Source: Lysinibacillus sphaericus OT4b.31
Lineage (GTDB): Bacteria; Bacillota; Bacilli; Bacillales_A; Planococcaceae
Reading direction: 5' to 3'
Assembly (NCBI RefSeq): GCF_000392615.1
Contig: NZ_KB933398.1
Coordinates: 3,209,705-3,273,704, forward strand
DNA length: 64,000 bases
Every line of letters begins with the position of its first letter. Within the stretch, counting starts at the first letter, position 1. A program made the position numbers and the translations under genes. This document shows, piece after piece, positions 56,535 to 64,000 of this stretch. The notes beneath the pieces are model-generated. The model ran no database searches and had not been told where the DNA came from. It was given only the letters and a program-made list of their open reading frames with translations.

Positions 56535-58667
56535 TTATTTCAATGAAATCTCAAATTTGGAGCCAACTTCTCCTGCAAATACTACTCTACCGTTCTCTGG
56601 TAACAGAACTTCATTGTTACCGCTGACCACGGTATAGTTAATGCAAACACCTGCTTGATCATATACAGCAAAAGAGCCCTTCGTAGGCATCTTAACCGTC
56701 ATAACCTTTCCTTTTGCAGCCTCAGGCACTGAAAACCAGTTCGCATAGCCGTCCGCTTGAATCGTTGTCGAAGACGTAAATTCTTTACCAGTGTAGAGCG
56801 GTTTTACAAGTTGCTCACTTGCGTATAAGTTTCCTCCTGCCGTAACATACTCTAATCCATTCTTCTTAAAGAAATTGATTTCCAGAGTATCTCTCCCAGC
56901 CATGCTAGGGATTTGCAGTTGGTTAGCTGCATTGTTTTCTCCAATAATCTTATTATTTAAAAAATATCCAGGAACTTCTTTAACCATATCAATAGGTATC
57001 ATTGATCCAGAATTGAAGTAAAGCATCGATGTATATTTCTCACTCACCAAGTAATATTTTTCACCTTCACGTTTCTCCCATGCGGCAGCTACGCCATTGG
57101 GTAATACATTGGCTTCGAGCTTTTCAGCATTATACCCTGAGACAGCTGTTTGTCCTAGCCCCGGGACGGTTATATATAAGCTGGACCATAAGTAAGTGCG
57201 CCCATTTTTCTCAACAACGAATTTTAATTTTTCTGTGCCTTCAGCGTTCACAAAAGAACCATCAGCCGTATACATATACTGTTGAACTGGATTGTCCGGA
57301 GCCGTTACCGTGGAAACAGACAATTCGCCTACAAGATTAATTTCTACCTTCATTAAATTACCAGAACCACCGCCGTAAATACCTGTATACTGAGAAAATT
57401 CCTGCGGCATACTCGCCTTTATAGGCAAACCATGCAACTTGTCTGGCATCCGTTCATGAATAACCCTCTTCTCCTGAAGTGCACTAAGCAGCAGTTCATT
57501 CGCTAACAATTGATTTACTACGCTGGAACCACCTGAAGAAATAACAGCCGCAGCCATATTGTGTTCTGGAAGCACGACTAACGAAGAGTGATAGTTCATC
57601 GTATCTCCACCTTTCGTAAGTGCCTTGATGCCGTATTCATTGTATGGGAACAAATTCACACTATCCCAGCCTAGTCCGTATGCGATGGAAGAAGGATCAG
57701 TTTCCTCTGGCCACATGCCTCTTTTATACTCTTCTTGTGCCATAGCTTCCACCGACTTCTTAGAAAGAATATCATCTGCATGTCCAGTGAAAATTTGTGA
57801 GAATTTAACGAGATCTTCAGCTGTAGAATACATGCCACCTGTTGCAATAATATTGTAATTCTCACTTGGGAGTTGTCCATTATAAGCAGGGGAATAGATC
57901 CCGGCCATTGTCGCTGAATCCACTCGATCCAGCGGTGTTTTCGTATGATTCATTTTTAGAGGCTCTGTCAAATACTTGTGTATAAAAGCTGTAAAAGACA
58001 TGCCACTTACTCTCTCTACCAAAATCTCAGCTAATGTAAAACCATCGTTGCAATATACCGAGTACGCTCCTGGCTCTGCCTTTAAATTTTGAGTCGCCAA
58101 TTGCTCTAACAAATTATCGTGTGCATAAGTATCATTATCCCCATACAAACCTGTATTACGGTACGAGGTTCCAAGTAGACCAGAGGAATGATTCAGCAGC
58201 ATACGTGGTGTAATCTGTTTATAACGATCGTCTTTCATCTTAAAATCAGGTATATATTTTACAACGGGTAAATCCAAATTTACCTTACCTTCGTCTACAA
58301 GCTTCATAATGGCAGCCGTGAGTACCATTTTGCTTGTAGAACCTATACCATACATTGTATTTGAAGTAAGAGGTATATTGTCCTTTATGTCGTTTTTGCC
58401 TGCATGCCCTGAGATGACAATTTCTCCATCATCAATGATCGCATATTGCGCACTTGAGATGCCGTAAGTTTCTGTTATCAGCTTGGCTTTCTCGGTCGCT
58501 ATTTTCTTAGTCGCATCAAATGTAACAACACTGCTATCGGTGGTTGTTGTGGCCATTGCAGACATTGGAGCAAGCATTGTTAGCATAAGGGTTAAAGCGA
58601 CGATTGGAGTTCGTTTTCTACCTTTTCTCGGGCCCATCTTCAATTTTATTTCTTCTCTTGATTTCAC
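56535..58667 (-). CDS. Secreted class C beta-lactamase-like serine hydrolase
   Basis: A 710-aa exported protein with a basic N-terminus and hydrophobic signal segment ([18 protein letters not shown]). The penicillin-binding fold (about 45-395) has the Ser-x-x-Lys motif STSK in [13 protein letters not shown] in SVYCNDGF as Tyr-x-Asn, and GGDTMNYHS at the third-motif position. This is the esterase/D-aminopeptidase/PBP4*-like group. The C-terminal about 300 residues are beta-rich and of unknown role. GTG start with AGGAGAGG upstream. It shares its promoter architecture with the three hydrolases. Substrate is unresolved: peptide, beta-lactam or ester. Confidence 0.87.
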
Positions 58668-58727
58668 TCGTATCCTCTCCTATCATTATCTGTTTATTGG
58701 GCTACCTTAACGGGCCCTAAGAAAAAG

Positions 58728-58780
58728 CCTATACGACGAAAATATTCTACCAGTGACGACAGTATGAATGGAGTATGAAC
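58728..58780 (-). promoter_or_regulatory. Shared-regulon promoter 1 (serine hydrolase)
   Basis: On the minus strand GTTCATAC (58780-58773) and ATTCATAC (58769-58762) form a direct repeat with an 11-bp period. The -10-like TATAGG (58733-58728) follows after exactly 28 bp. No good -35 lies between, so an activator is expected. Confidence 0.65.
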
Positions 58781-58791
58781 AAATGAAAAAA

Positions 58792-58838
58792 ATGCTACGG
58801 CGCACATGCCAGGAAGCTTGCACATAATGCCGTAGCAT
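58792..58838 (-). terminator. Terminator after alpha/beta hydrolase 1
   Basis: ATGCTACGGC (58792-58801) pairs with GCCGTAGCAT (58829-58838), with a T run on the minus strand. It closes hydrolase 1 and insulates the next promoter. Confidence 0.75.
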
Positions 58839-58924
58839 GGATAATACGAGGACTGTGTTTAGATAATGCGAATGAGAGCATGTTGTTACATCAAATAGTT
58901 ACAAACAAACTTTCATTTTAAAAA

Positions 58925-59950
58925 TTATCTACTGTCTTGCTTTACTTCTTCCATAAACGCCCTGAAGTTTTCAGCGATTTCTTTTGATTTGGTATGGTGT
59001 AAATAATGTGTTCCTTCAAATGTCATCACTTTTCCATATACAGAATCTTTTACTTGCTCTTCATGTAGTGTTGACCATCCTTCAATTCCAGTACTATTCG
59101 GTTGTAAAAAGAAAATAACAGGAAGGTTTTTTGGGAATGTTAAATTTTCAGCTGCTTTAAAATTAGAAAACCTATTTTCTATTTCATTCACAATGGTGGG
59201 ATTTCTAAAGTTTTTGTAAGAAAGAATTCTCATTTGTTCTTTTGTTTCATCATCAACTGGTAGAGTAGCATATGGGTCAGCACTTAGTTTCATTACTAAT
59301 CTGCCTAAACCTGATTCTTTGAGTAGTGTAATTACTGAATTAGGTATTGGAGATTCAACAACCTTATCACCATATTGCCTTGGAGCACTGCTATCGATCC
59401 CGACAAATGCACTCACTTCGTGTTCATATTTGTTCACATAATCTAGTCCGTAAATGCCCGCAATGGAGTGACCCATTAGAATATAGCGGTCAATTTTAAG
59501 AATCTGTAAAGCTTCATGAATTTCACTTACAATATTTTCTGTGCTTCGTTCTTTTTCGGTTATATCACTTAATCCATAACCAAATGGCTCAATCACTACG
59601 ACTTTGTAAAATGGCGATAACTCTTCTACTAGCGGCTTAAAATCAAGTGCTGGTGTTCCTGTTCCCAAACCTGGTAGTAGCACGACGGTTTCTTCGCCTT
59701 GTCCTTGAATCAAAACATTCATATTTTTCCCATCTACTGTTACAGACTGACCATAGGGTTTTATTTTTCCTTCCTCTGATTTGCTAATGATCTTATCAAC
59801 GACAAAAACGATGGCTATAAAAACGACGATTGCTATAACTAATGCTGCTAATATTTTAAGTAAAATGATAAGCATTTTTTTCATCTTATTAGCTGGTTTT
59901 TTGCCTGTTGTTGTGTCCAAGTCCATTTTCTTCACCTCTCGTATTTTCAC
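58925..59950 (-). CDS. Membrane-anchored alpha/beta hydrolase 1
   Basis: The first of three tandem paralogs. An N-terminal membrane helix (about residues 27-50, MLIILLKILAALVIAIVVFIAIVFVV) anchors an extracellular alpha/beta-hydrolase domain. The oxyanion region is VVLLPGLGTGTPALDF, the nucleophile Ser is in LMGHSIAGIYGLDYV, and the catalytic His is in FEGTHYLHHTKSKEI. The start is GTG 59950 (AGGAG 9 nt upstream) or ATG 59926 (GAGAGGTG upstream). The natural substrate is unknown; the family contains esterases, lipases and lactonases. Promoter type is shared with its neighbours. Confidence 0.85.
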   Translation of the reverse strand: MKIREVKKMDLDTTTGKKPANKMKKMLIILLKILAALVIAIVVFIAIVFVVDKIISKSEEGKIKPYGQSVTVDGKNMNVLIQGQGEETVVLLPGLGTGTPALDFKPLVEELSPFYKVVVIEPFGYGLSDITEKERSTENIVSEIHEALQILKIDRYILMGHSIAGIYGLDYVNKYEHEVSAFVGIDSSAPRQYGDKVVESPIPNSVITLLKESGLGRLVMKLSADPYATLPVDDETKEQMRILSYKNFRNPTIVNEIENRFSNFKAAENLTFPKNLPVIFFLQPNSTGIEGWSTLHEEQVKDSVYGKVMTFEGTHYLHHTKSKEIAENFRAFMEEVKQDSR

Positions 59951-60014
59951 TCACATCTTCTCCTATCGTTACCTCTCTATTGGACTGCCTGCCTTATCGG
60001 GCAGTTAAGACAAG

Positions 60015-60067
60015 CATATACGGCGAAGATGAACTCACTGTGACGTCAATATGAACCGAGTATGAAC
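60015..60067 (-). promoter_or_regulatory. Shared-regulon promoter 2 (hydrolase 1)
   Basis: GTTCATAC (60067-60060) and GTTCATAT (60056-60049) lie 11 bp apart on the minus strand. TATATG (60020-60015) follows after exactly 28 bp. Confidence 0.65.
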
Positions 60068-60101
60068 AAGCAAAAAAATGCCACATCATCATATGTACAG
60101 T

Positions 60102-60127
60102 GAAAAACCGCCCCAAAGGACGGTTTT
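60102..60127 (-). terminator. Terminator after alpha/beta hydrolase 2
   Basis: GAAAACCGTCC and GGCGGTTTTT arms form a stem with wobble pairs just downstream of the gene at 60146, with Ts at the minus-strand 3' side. Confidence 0.65.
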
Positions 60128-60145
60128 CATATCACTTATGCACAC

Positions 60146-61159
60146 TTACTTTGCTTCTTTCATAAATTCTCTAAAGTTTTGAGCGATTTCTTTGAATTGG
60201 GTATGGTGTAAATAATGTGATCCCTCCATTGGGATCATTTTTCCATGTACAGAATCTTTTACTTGCTCTTCATGTAGTGGAATCCATCCTTCTACGCCTG
60301 CATTATTCGCTTGTACAAAGAGAAGAAGAGGAAGGTCTTTAGGGAATGACAAGTCTTGAGCCCCTTTAAAATTAGAAGATATATGTTCCATTTCATTCAA
60401 GGTAGTGGCATTATACATGTTTTTATTCGAAATCATTTTCATTTGCTCTACAGTTTGAGCATCAAACGCTAGTCCAGCATAGGGGTCACCACTTACTTTC
60501 ATGATCAATCTTAAGAGGCCTGATTTTTCGACAAATGCAAACGTTTTTACTGGCAATTCGACATCCATACCCGGTTGTGTTGGAACACTGCTATCGATTC
60601 CGACAAATGCACTCACTTCGTTTGGATATTTGTTGACATAATCAAGTCCATAGATACCTGTAATGGAATGGCCCATTAGCGTAAATTTGTCAATATCAAG
60701 CTGTTGTAAAGCTTCATGCATCTCACTGACAATATTCTCAGTGCTTCGTTCTTTATCGGTCTCATCACTTAATCCATATCCGAAAGGCTCAATCGCAACG
60801 ACTTTGTAAAATGGAGATAACTTATCGATAAGCAGCTTAAAATCAAGCGCTGGTGTAGCTGTTCCATAGCCAGGTAGGAGCACGACGGTTTCTTCTCCTT
60901 CACCTTGAATGAAGACATTCATATTTTTTCCGTCTACTGTTACAAACTGACCATAAGATTCTATTTTTCCTTGCTCCATCTTATTGCAGATAATATTAAC
61001 TAGAAAAACAATAGCTAGAAAAAGCACTAAGACTATAGCTAAAACTGCTATTATTTTACCTATGATGGTTAACGGTTTTTTCATTATGTTTGCACGAGTG
61101 GTGTAGAGCGGCAACTGCAGCTTGTTTTCTACCTTTACTCGTGCCCCCCTCCCTTTCAT
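60146..61159 (-). CDS. Membrane-anchored alpha/beta hydrolase 2
   Basis: The second paralog, 337 aa. Its membrane helix is IIGKIIAVLAIVLVLFLAIVFLV (about residues 33-55). It keeps VVLLPGYGTATPALDF, the nucleophile in LMGHSITGIYGLDYV and His in MEGSHYLHHTQFKEI. The ATG at 61159 opens a 25-residue basic leader before MKKPLTIIGK; an internal ATG at 61084 corresponds to the start of hydrolase 3. The near-identical core (SYGQFVTVDGKNMNVFIQG) shows recent duplication with hydrolase 3. Confidence 0.85.
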   Translation of the reverse strand: MKGRGARVKVENKLQLPLYTTRANIMKKPLTIIGKIIAVLAIVLVLFLAIVFLVNIICNKMEQGKIESYGQFVTVDGKNMNVFIQGEGEETVVLLPGYGTATPALDFKLLIDKLSPFYKVVAIEPFGYGLSDETDKERSTENIVSEMHEALQQLDIDKFTLMGHSITGIYGLDYVNKYPNEVSAFVGIDSSVPTQPGMDVELPVKTFAFVEKSGLLRLIMKVSGDPYAGLAFDAQTVEQMKMISNKNMYNATTLNEMEHISSNFKGAQDLSFPKDLPLLLFVQANNAGVEGWIPLHEEQVKDSVHGKMIPMEGSHYLHHTQFKEIAQNFREFMKEAK

Positions 61160-61222
61160 TCTCTATTCGCATCTTCTATCCACATCCGTATATTCCGGCT
61201 ACTTTTACAAACCTAAATACAG

Positions 61223-61275
61223 CTTATACAACAAAAGTGTACTATCTATGACAACAATATGAACGGAGTATGAAC
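61223..61275 (-). promoter_or_regulatory. Shared-regulon promoter 3 (hydrolase 2)
   Basis: GTTCATAC (61275-61268) and GTTCATAT (61264-61257) have an 11-bp period on the minus strand. TATAAG (61228-61223) follows after exactly 28 bp. Confidence 0.68.
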
Positions 61276-61400
61276 AAATAAAAAAATTTTACAGCGTCAC
61301 ATGCTAGAAAACTTTAATGGTAGCTTGGAGAATGTGGCTTAGACAATGTAATTGATACAAAACTATTACAATAATTGTGACAGGAATTTTTTCACTACAC

Positions 61401-62342
61401 TTATTTTATTTCATCCATATACGCCCTGAAATTTTCAACAATTTCTTTTGCTTTAGTACGATATAAATAATGATCCCCTTCAAATGTCATCACTTTCCCG
61501 TGTACTAAATCTTTTATTTGTTTTTTATGCTCTGGTATCCATCTTTCAGTTACTTTATGATCTGCTTGTATAAAGAAAATAACGGGTAGATTTTTTGGGA
61601 ATGATAAATTTTCAGCTGCTCTAAAATTAGCATACATATTTTCAGCTTCATTTAATTGGTTGGGATTAAACCTGTTTTTGTGTATAAGAATACTCAATTG
61701 TTCTTTTGTTTTATCATCATATGGTAGTGTAGCGTATGGGTCATCGCCTAGCTTGATTTGCAATCTGGCTAAACCTGATTTTTTGAGTAGTTTTAAAGTG
61801 CCTATTATTGGAGATCCAATCTTTTTCTCGCTTATCGTTGGCACACTGCTATCGAGCCCGACAAATGCACTCACTTCGTTTGGATATTTGTTCACATAAC
61901 CCAGTCCGTAAATGCCAGAAATGGAGTGGCCCATTAGAATATAACGCTCAATATTTAGCTGCTGTAACGCTTCATGTATTTCACTGACAATATTCTCTGT
62001 GCTTCGTTCCTTTTCGGTCAGTTCACTTAATCCATAACCAAAAGGCTCAATTACAACGACTTTGTAAAATGGAGATAACTCATCGATAAGTGGCTTAAAA
62101 TCGAGTGCTGGTGCTGCTGTTCCATAACCTGGTAGGAGCACAACCGTTTCTTCTCCTTGCCCTTGAATGAAGACATTCATATTTTTCCCATCTACGGTTA
62201 CAAACTGACCATAAGATTCTTTTTTTCCTTGCTCCATTTTGTTGCAGACAATATTAACTAGAAAAACAATAGCTAGAAAAAGTATGATGGCTATAGCTAG
62301 AGCCGCTATTAATTTACCTATAATGGTTATCGTTTTTTTCAT
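61401..62342 (-). CDS. Membrane-anchored alpha/beta hydrolase 3
   Basis: The third paralog, 313 aa, starting MKKTITIIGKLIAALAIAIILFLAIVFLV. The nucleophile is in LMGHSISGIYGLGYV, the His in FEGDHYLYRTKAKEI. Unlike hydrolase 2, the upstream leader ATG (62424) is out of frame with this start: 82 nt separate them, versus 75 in hydrolase 2. No ribosome-binding site precedes ATG 62342. It may rely on reinitiation, or be poorly translated after a small leader insertion. The enzyme core itself looks intact. Confidence 0.8.
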   Translation of the reverse strand: MKKTITIIGKLIAALAIAIILFLAIVFLVNIVCNKMEQGKKESYGQFVTVDGKNMNVFIQGQGEETVVLLPGYGTAAPALDFKPLIDELSPFYKVVVIEPFGYGLSELTEKERSTENIVSEIHEALQQLNIERYILMGHSISGIYGLGYVNKYPNEVSAFVGLDSSVPTISEKKIGSPIIGTLKLLKKSGLARLQIKLGDDPYATLPYDDKTKEQLSILIHKNRFNPNQLNEAENMYANFRAAENLSFPKNLPVIFFIQADHKVTERWIPEHKKQIKDLVHGKVMTFEGDHYLYRTKAKEIVENFRAYMDEIK

Positions 62343-62489
62343 GATGTTTGCACGAACACGAGGGTGTAGCGCGGCAATGGAAGGCCGTTTTCTCCTTTGG
62401 TCTCGTGCCTCTCCTCTCTTTCATTCTCTATTCGTATCTTCTATCCACATCCGTATATTTCGGTTACTTTTACAAACCGTTAAGGACAG

Positions 62490-62542
62490 CTTATACAATG
62501 AAGGTGTACTCCCTATGACCACAATATGAACGGAGTATGAAC
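62490..62542 (-). promoter_or_regulatory. Shared-regulon promoter 4 (hydrolase 3)
   Basis: GTTCATAC (62542-62535) and GTTCATAT (62531-62524) have an 11-bp period on the minus strand. TATAAG (62495-62490) follows after exactly 28 bp. Confidence 0.68.
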
Positions 62543-62552
62543 AAATAAAAAA

Positions 62553-62600
62553 ATGTTACGGCGTCATATGCAACAAAGTTTACACATGACGCCGTAACAT
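62553..62600 (-). terminator. Terminator of the histidine kinase gene
   Basis: ATGTTACGGCGTCAT (62553-62567) pairs perfectly with ATGACGCCGTAACAT (62586-62600). Seven Ts follow on the minus strand. Confidence 0.85.
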
Positions 62601-62649
62601 GGAGAATACGAGGTTGTTACCATAATTCGAATGTAAGATTTGAATGGCG

Positions 62650-64000
62650 TTACTCTTTCGGTGTTACGATTGGCAAAGTGACAATGAACGTCGTTCCTCT
62701 GCCGGGTTCGCTTTCCACGCGGATGTCACCTTGATGTAGCGATACAATCTGTTTAACGATGGCAAGTCCCATACCACTACCAGCATACTTACGACTGTGT
62801 GAACGATCCGCCTTAAAAAACCGCTCGAATATACGCTTCTGGTCCTCGTAGGAAATACCAATACCTTTGTCGGATATTCGTACTGTCGCATTTTTGGTAT
62901 CTTGTTTGATGCTAACGTTAATAACGCTGTTATCCTTGGAAAATTTGATACTATTCACGAGAATGTTTGTCCATACCTGGTTTAATTGATCATAATCAGC
63001 TTCTAGACGAACGGCTTCCAAATCAAGCTCAAAACGGATGTTGCGAGCCGTCCACTGCGGCTGAATTGCCACGATGGCTCGTCTGATTTGTTCATCAACA
63101 CTGAATGTGACCAACTGCAATTGCTGCGACTGCGATTCAAGCATACTCAATTTTAAGAGACTATCGCTCATTTTGGACATCCGATGTGCTTCAGCAATGA
63201 TAATATCGAGATAACGATGTCTTTCGTTATGTGTGATGTCTTCTTGCTTGAGCGCTAGAGCATAACCCGCTATCGAGGTAAGCGGTGACTGAACTTCATG
63301 TGACACATTGGATACGAATTCCCTCCGCATCTGCTCAAGTTGCTGCAGATCGTGCGTCATTTCTTCGAAGCTGCGCGCTAAAGTACCTAGCTCGCCCTTT
63401 TGCTTAATATTCAGCTTGACGTTAAAATCGCCACCTGCTATATGCCTAGTTGCATTTGTCAGCCTTTTGATCGGTTTGACTAGGAACATGGCAGCAACCA
63501 GTATCAATAGGCTTCCCGCTATCAACGAATAGCTTGAAAAGTTCAAAATCCACTTTATTACAAAAGAGGAGGAGGGGAGGGCAATCGGTTCTATAAACAT
63601 CGCTTTCGTTCCCATTTCGGTTGTCAATGGCAACCCTAAGAGAACCGTAGAAATACCACTTTTATTGATTTGAACAGTTTCCCCATCTAGTACTTTTTTT
63701 ACTTGTTCCATCGTCACAGTAACAAGCTTGTGTCCGTTCAGCTCTCCGTAAGACTGGAACTGACCCGTTTCTTCGTAAATTCGAATATGATAGGAATTGA
63801 GTTGATTCATGCCACTTATGAATGTGTCCGCTTCACGTAACGGTAAAGTCTCATAAATCCGAGAAATGTCCTGACCAAAGTTAAATAAGGGGATTTGCAG
63901 ATTTTCATTCAATTTCTCTTCAAATACCCAAACTGCCAGAAAAAAAGCAAAGATTGTGCCCACGATAACGGACACTAAATATGTCAAGACAACACGTGTA
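62650..64000 (-). CDS. Sensor histidine kinase (5' end outside window)
   Basis: A membrane two-component kinase. Two membrane helices (near residues 3-22 and 156-178 from the TTG at 63987) bracket an extracellular sensor of about 130 residues. HAMP follows, then HisKA with the phospho-His near 230 (FVSNVSHEVQSPLTSIAGYA), an N box (NQVWTNILVNSIKFSKD), and G boxes (ISDKGIGISYED, AGSGMGLAIVKQI). The frame stays open upstream to the window edge (TRVVLTYL), so TTG 63987 is unlikely to be the true start. The response regulator is presumably just outside. It probably controls the four adjacent promoters. Confidence 0.92.
   Translation of the reverse strand, partial: TRVVLTYLVSVIVGTIFAFFLAVWVFEEKLNENLQIPLFNFGQDISRIYETLPLREADTFISGMNQLNSYHIRIYEETGQFQSYGELNGHKLVTVTMEQVKKVLDGETVQINKSGISTVLLGLPLTTEMGTKAMFIEPIALPSSSFVIKWILNFSSYSLIAGSLLILVAAMFLVKPIKRLTNATRHIAGGDFNVKLNIKQKGELGTLARSFEEMTHDLQQLEQMRREFVSNVSHEVQSPLTSIAGYALALKQEDITHNERHRYLDIIIAEAHRMSKMSDSLLKLSMLESQSQQLQLVTFSVDEQIRRAIVAIQPQWTARNIRFELDLEAVRLEADYDQLNQVWTNILVNSIKFSKDNSVINVSIKQDTKNATVRISDKGIGISYEDQKRIFERFFKADRSHSRKYAGSGMGLAIVKQIVSLHQGDIRVESEPGRGTTFIVTLPIVTPKE

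Follow-up and report, generated by a model that had tools for sequence, protein, structure and literature searches.

What switches on four hydrolase genes that lie side by side in Lysinibacillus sphaericus OT4b.31, each behind a promoter of the same design, and against what are their products directed? The window, by which we mean the whole stretch of 64,000 nucleotides analysed here (contig NZ_KB933398.1, positions 3,209,705 to 3,273,704 of the forward strand), holds genes for three alpha/beta hydrolases (A, B and C) and a serine hydrolase (S). Transcription on the minus strand runs from a response regulator (RR) gene through a sensor histidine kinase (HK) gene to A, B, C and then S. A first-pass annotation had taken the four enzymes for envelope hydrolases under a single two-component system. 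Control by one such system is supported below; the envelope is probably the wrong target, since S groups with the lipopeptide-induced DL-peptidase Lip3. We consider it probable that the cluster belongs to a regulon, sensing lipopeptides or their damage, of enzymes, some secreted and some membrane-anchored, that take foreign lipopeptides apart.

A composite operator with four half-sites

Upstream of each hydrolase gene the annotation had described a direct repeat, a 28-bp gap and a TATA(A/G/T)G box, and we found all three at minus-strand positions 62542, 61275, 60067 and 58780, in elements of about 55 bp each. The element of A (62488..62542, minus strand) has four half-sites in 11-bp steps, a -10 sequence TAAGCT (62493-62488) and a matrix score of 83.0; on the same strand lie those of B (61221..61275, -10 TAAGCT, score 71.0), C (60013..60067, TATGCT, 71.2) and S (58726..58780, TAGGCT, 59.6). 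Repeat, spacing and TATA sequence are as described, but the half-sites number four instead of two. Across 76 dereplicated blocks (151 distinct blocks reduced to those differing by more than 11 of 75 bases) they begin at positions 1, 12, 23 and 34 and read GTTCATA, GTTCATA, CGTCAY and GTACAT. With steps of 11 bp, each half-site of this tandem direct-repeat operator takes up about one turn of the helix.

The blocks were gathered by similarity to a 39-bp core with up to four mismatches, so that conservation within the core arises partly by selection; still conserved outside it are positions 40-42, 45, 50-51, 55 and 60-62. Because T50 (0.99), A51 (0.99) and T55 (0.97) are near-invariant, TANNCT, which lies 2 bp downstream of the earlier TATA box, is the better reading of the -10. 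At the corresponding place 17 bp upstream of TANNCT (positions 27-32) the consensus bears no resemblance to a -35. A sigma-70 promoter scan showed no enrichment (13 against a shuffle mean of 20.7) and called none of the four promoters, as is to be expected with the -35 absent. A T-run is conserved at -10 to -4, which fits terminators directly upstream. One such intrinsic terminator, a terminator-like site call, lies behind the kinase gene and immediately before operator A (62553..62600, minus strand), and the alignment with the S block shows a related hairpin sequence before operator S. At one related locus (L026:7877-7900) an extra partial repeat, GTTCATATTCAGTTCATATATTCAGTTCATATTG, is inserted in the operator before the first hydrolase.

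Specificity for three hydrolase families

Scanning the 4.86-Mb genome for the repeat plus its 28-bp spacer, as the annotation had proposed, returned the exact composite four times, all in the cluster, and never in the backwards reading. Allowing one mismatch at most, the repeat by itself gave 34 matches against 14 in a reversed control; it is thus unspecific, and specificity therefore lies in the whole element. In an out-of-sample test, with a matrix built from 72 blocks of other genomes only and window sequences excluded, the four window sites scored 59.6 to 83.0 and the next best position in the 64 kb scored -23.3. Over 1,116,161 bases scanned, with some loci overlapping and many sites belonging to the matrix training set, 125 positions scored above 30, none between -15 and +30, and six between -25 and -15.

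Two surveys with a DNA pattern allowing up to two mismatches gave 90 matches in 41 genomes, of which 89 precede one of three hydrolase families: 77 alpha/beta hydrolases, 11 S/Lip3 genes and one PAF-acetylhydrolase-like gene. The remaining match (L119, in genome G492) has none behind it, so that the many unrelated matches against which the annotation had warned come to one in 90. An earlier tally on a smaller set of pattern-reached loci had given 67 of 68. Across all loci 181 distinct sites scored above 20, with 139 before an alpha/beta hydrolase, 37 before an S/Lip3 gene, one before a PAF-acetylhydrolase-like gene and four before none of these (L029, L034, L119 and L134, the last with 487 bp only); many of these loci were chosen through their genes, and the pattern-hit count is the unbiased one. 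At the level of the class, the pattern occurs in 25 of 398 genomes and 4 of 145 genera. With 89 of 90 matches before three enzyme families, the operator is precise enough for regulon prediction from sequence alone, and it could serve as a marker for further lipopeptide-modifying enzymes, uncharacterised alpha/beta hydrolases included.

Some individual sites have unusual surroundings. In G033, a genome that lacks the kinase, an operator persists in front of what is left of an alpha/beta hydrolase gene, 20 codons (L124:4856-4976; one of the 77). The operator at L034:11761-12621 has behind it an S gene whose opening portion gives way to an ABC-transporter permease (PF00528), apparently through a deletion or rearrangement. 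An extra PAF-acetylhydrolase-like gene (PF03403) lies inside some Paenibacillus clusters (L125:3618-5072, L126:6445-7899 and L205:9741-11195).

Co-occurrence of operator and kinase

The HK gene (62650..64000, minus strand) starts 17 bp past the window end and encodes HAMP, HisKA and HATPase_c domains (Pfam), with two hydrophobic segments separated by about 125 residues. Beyond the window end, where an OmpR-type regulator had been predicted, its gene was indeed present (genome C1:3273718-3274401, equivalent to L005:1719-2402, minus strand), overlapping the kinase gene by 4 bp. RR resembles full-length OmpR/PhoB-class models and exceeds no equivalog cut-off; a HisKA and HATPase_c kinase adjoining a regulator of this class places the pair among OmpR/PhoB-type two-component systems. 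Against the WalK/YycF, VanS/VanR and MtrA models kinase and regulator both score under the cut-offs. We rejected identity with VanRS (VanR 184.2 of 350 and VanS 144.8 of 400, relative to the model cut-offs) and with the Pho regulon (PhoB 213.8 of 296.2, PnpS 246.5 of 400, PhoR 211.3 of 334.2).

Related loci retain the association. An operator site is present in 42 of 43, and RR and HK together adjoin the hydrolase genes in 31 of the 43, with HK only in one more. The remaining 11 loci fall in nine genomes, all nine of which have the kinase, on another contig or beyond the retrieved flank; the kinase could therefore serve the unlinked sites that we checked in trans, the relic in G033 excepted.

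Among the genomes surveyed, the kinase search covered two families. In the organism's own family the kinase sensor region was found in 19 of 200 genomes (E up to 1e-12), and every one of these has a site, detected by the pattern with up to two mismatches in 18 and by the matrix, as two sites, in G074. The 181 kinase-negative genomes of this family gave a single pattern match, the one before the 20-codon remnant in G033. From the second family the class sample includes 36 genomes in all; the pattern is present in 22 and absent from 14. The kinase (E up to 1e-30) was found in 24: all 22 positives and two of the 14 negatives, these two being the only negatives to show sites at three mismatches. 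Site and kinase thus occur together in 43 of 43 kinase-positive genomes (19 plus 24). Within the organism's genus, 14 genomes lack the kinase (G033 aside); their best relatives of hydrolase A reach 31-34% identity, and such relatives at E up to 1e-40 occur in three of the 14, without an operator near any of them. With a regulator present, near-perfect co-occurrence of operator and kinase, and unlinked operators before the same enzyme families, the proposal of a single two-component regulon is supported.

Might a different OmpR-family regulator bind these sites, the adjacent pair controlling something else? The RR gene itself carries no site, and a bacterium has, to our knowledge, many OmpR regulators. 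Against this stand the joint occurrence of site and kinase in every kinase-positive genome, the lone kinase-negative genome with a site, whose gene is only a relic, and the adjacency kept in 31 of 43 loci. We regard control by another regulator as very improbable.

The connection of S with Lip3

S (56535..58667, minus strand) has a PF00144 domain and a signal-peptide-like start. Its catalytic motifs SxxK (110-113), YxN (205-207) and KGG (352-354) we take to be those of S12 D-stereospecific peptidases, and S110, K113, Y205, N207 and K352-G354 are invariant in an alignment of 11 sequences that includes S. Identity as a class C beta-lactamase was rejected (51.3 of 415 bits). Over its full length, 660 columns, S is 67% identical to PDB 9sn1, 'Lip3 DL-peptidase in the apo-state', from Paenibacillus, and this full-length similarity together with the S12 motifs groups S with the Lip3-type DL-peptidases. 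The AlphaFold model of S was poor (pLDDT 44.7), owing to a shallow alignment, and its relation to 9sn1 rests on sequence. Other D-stereospecific S12 peptidases (alkaline D-peptidase, 4y7p, and ClbP) are similar to S within the PF00144 domain, but the similarity is far lower than to Lip3, and S has about 300 extra C-terminal residues that it shares with Lip3.

A commentary, in its available part (PMC13188892), reports that peptidase genes of Paenibacillus were upregulated on exposure to syringafactin (Zhang et al. 2026), that Lip3 and Lip7 were shown to cleave DL-amide bonds, and that Lip3, which cleaves syringafactin, is induced by a lipopeptide from Pseudomonas. Genome G607, which is the same as G452 (the two agree exactly over 13 kb of contig C12), carries a gene whose product matches the Lip3 chain at 100% over 658 residues, and an operator stands 105 bp before its start with a score of 47.2, from a matrix built before any Lip3 loci were retrieved. 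About 163 kb away on the same contig are RR, HK and three further sites, in a region with an A-type gene, a PAF-acetylhydrolase-like hydrolase, two S paralogues and a C-type gene. Thus Lip3 resembles S in full-length identity, catalytic motifs and the operator before its gene, and differs in standing alone, far from the kinase, whereas S sits inside the cluster. Among the best 30 Lip3-homologue loci, 25 have a site. Because an enzyme reported to be lipopeptide-induced carries the operator, we name lipopeptides, or their membrane effect, as the likely signal; because S belongs with Lip3, the likely job of the system is the breakdown of foreign lipopeptides.

The annotation had known of no described system of this composition. 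The enzyme family was in fact described in 2026, but for the regulator and operator the statement holds in the literature searched: our searches, mostly outside subscription papers and Zhang et al. 2026, found nothing that we recognised as describing either. The available part of the commentary names no regulator for Lip3, and it names the regulation of such lipopeptide-remodelling enzymes as a matter for future work (PMC13188892).

A proposed mechanism and its rivals

From these observations we infer regulator binding, activation, the signal and the substrates of A to C as follows. The cluster would be the core of a two-component regulon directed against peptide natural products of neighbours, most likely D-amino-acid lipopeptides. 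The membrane sensor kinase would answer the compound or its membrane damage and phosphorylate the adjacent OmpR/PhoB-type regulator, which would bind the four tandem half-sites at 11-bp spacing, one per helical turn. Our model for the layout is activation by PhoB: as the half-sites are one turn apart, end about 10 bp before the -10 and leave no -35-like hexamer, they may replace the -35 and allow activation in the PhoB manner. Activation would then yield S, a secreted DL-peptidase of the Lip3 kind, together with the membrane-anchored alpha/beta hydrolases A, B and C. The Pho box consists of 7-nt direct repeats, CTGTCAT, separated by 4 nt (PMC3131613, available part), and the likeness to PhoB/PhoR thus extends over the regulator class, 7-nt repeats with 4-nt gaps and a common TCAT core. 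The present system differs in having four GTTCATA-type half-sites, an RR and HK below the PhoB, PnpS and PhoR cut-offs, and hydrolase targets instead of phosphate genes.

The same regulon could in principle serve upkeep of the cell's own envelope, with S trimming peptidoglycan or teichoic acid in the manner of a penicillin-binding protein or FmtA, A-C acting on membrane lipids and the kinase sensing envelope stress. S does have a penicillin-binding-protein/beta-lactamase family domain, with weaker matches to D-Ala-D-Ala carboxypeptidases and FmtA, and the regulator pair gives its sub-threshold scores against models that include WalK/YycF, VanS/VanR and MtrA. By far the closest solved enzyme, however, is Lip3, which cleaves lipopeptides, and the regulon is patchy (kinase in 19 of 200 family genomes), unlike housekeeping functions; envelope upkeep therefore seems unlikely. 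Self-immunity, in which the enzymes would clear the organism's own nonribosomal peptides, draws on nine condensation-domain matches in the same genome. These lie 0.5 to 2.3 Mb away (C1:0.94-0.96, 2.25 and 2.70-2.71 Mb), and the reported inducer of Lip3 is a lipopeptide of Pseudomonas (PMC13188892, available part), which makes this explanation distinctly less credible still.

Several observations weigh against a lipopeptide-responsive regulon controlled by this pair. The lipopeptide link rests on one enzyme family and on a commentary in its available part; five of the best 30 Lip3-homologue loci have no site, and the operator of Lip3 itself matches less well at half-sites 2 and 3. The co-occurrence of site and kinase gave Fisher values of 1e-25 and 8e-10 in tests that treat related genomes as independent. 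One genome with the kinase and three operator-bearing copies (L152, L154 and L155) also has a family alpha/beta hydrolase without an operator (L147, G568:C248), and the site in G492 (L119:2028) is weaker, with a score of 38, and stands in or near an open reading frame with a GH42 C-terminal domain, with no family gene behind it. Promoter blocks were copied along with their genes, so a site that stands before a gene is in part inherited and does not count as independent evidence that the gene is regulated. Autoregulation, a common feature of such systems, was rejected as acting through the same site, there being none before the RR gene in 36 related loci or here (best score -35.4; 500 shuffled stretches gave a 99th percentile of -36.9 and a maximum of -29.6, and loci with less than 250 bp upstream were omitted). 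As the RR gene has no site, the RR-HK pair is probably made at a basal level.

On balance we lean towards a dedicated Bacillales two-component system that couples the sensing of foreign lipopeptides, through a four-half-site operator, to a regulon of scattered genes for DL-peptidases and membrane-anchored alpha/beta hydrolases, joined in Paenibacillus by a PAF-acetylhydrolase-like enzyme. Such a system would supply the regulatory side still lacking from the chemical defence, triggered by lipopeptides, that has been reported for Paenibacillus. It offers a candidate sensor, regulator and operator for detecting a neighbour's lipopeptide and inducing the enzymes that remodel it, and may help to explain the disappearance of biocontrol lipopeptides in soil.

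Duplication history of the promoters

The annotation had held that the flanking DNA of the four promoters has diverged. This is only partly true: for C against A and C against B the best local alignment ends just past the operator, but S aligns beyond it with each of the other genes. In these alignments of S with the A, B and C blocks, the matching region spans the 3' part of the terminator, the operator and the leader, and leader-only local scores exceed all 300 shuffles in six of six pairs (the closest being S-A, 34 against 30). A duplication covering the S promoter, which the annotation had raised as an objection, is therefore real in form, terminator, operator and leader being homologous, but it is not recent, and the operator has been kept as a site. 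In a tree of 68 hydrolases (rows under 280 aa dropped) A, B and C each fall in a well-supported group of their own that contains both Lysinibacillus and Paenibacillus members, and the operator is retained across genera. Recent duplication as a full explanation was rejected on the grounds of these separate deep clades.

Could the repeats be mere leftovers of gene duplication with no regulatory role? The homology of terminator, operator and leader among the four genes is what such an explanation would draw on. However, the 76 dereplicated blocks hardly vary in the half-sites and the -10, whereas sequence before the terminator T-run or beyond +76 is close to random, and A, B and C are deep paralogues; the probability left to this explanation is close to negligible.

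The leaders of A and B (window 62340-62605 and 61085-61340) are near-identical (block score 339) despite the separate deep clades of the two genes, and their N-terminal halves are also alike by eye, which suggests gene conversion across the promoter and N-terminus. Both leaders, upstream of 62342 and 61084, retain sequence that corresponds to the initial codons of S (GGCCCGAGAAAAGGTAGAAAAC-like). We read this stretch as a fossil signal-peptide coding region before an unrelated enzyme; a piece with promoter and signal-peptide start would therefore have been copied, either to a place before an unrelated enzyme or away from one.

The alpha/beta hydrolases

Hydrolases A (61401..62342), B (60146..61159) and C (58925..59950), all on the minus strand, each have a single N-terminal hydrophobic helix. 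The true start of B is likely the ATG at 61084 (312 aa, as in L016), the longer open reading frame starting inside the leader. A fold search with the model of C (pLDDT 80.6) returned generic alpha/beta hydrolases only and indicated no substrate. Given the fold class, we would guess that A-C open lipopeptide lactones or remove acyl chains. Two lipopeptide esterases, SfhA and a hydrolase that linearises tolaasin (PMC13188892, available part), open lipopeptide ester bonds and illustrate a possible role for A-C, to which they are likened by description only.

The closest relatives found for the alpha/beta hydrolases are in Lysinibacillus parviboronicapiens, at 97 to 99% identity. Compared with four Paenibacillus loci (L006-L009), C is 89-91% identical, RR 83-88%, HK 74-81% and S 70 and 73% (46% in L008). 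Since the identity of C is above that of RR, HK and S, the comparison suggests that the C unit was horizontally transferred between Lysinibacillus and Paenibacillus.

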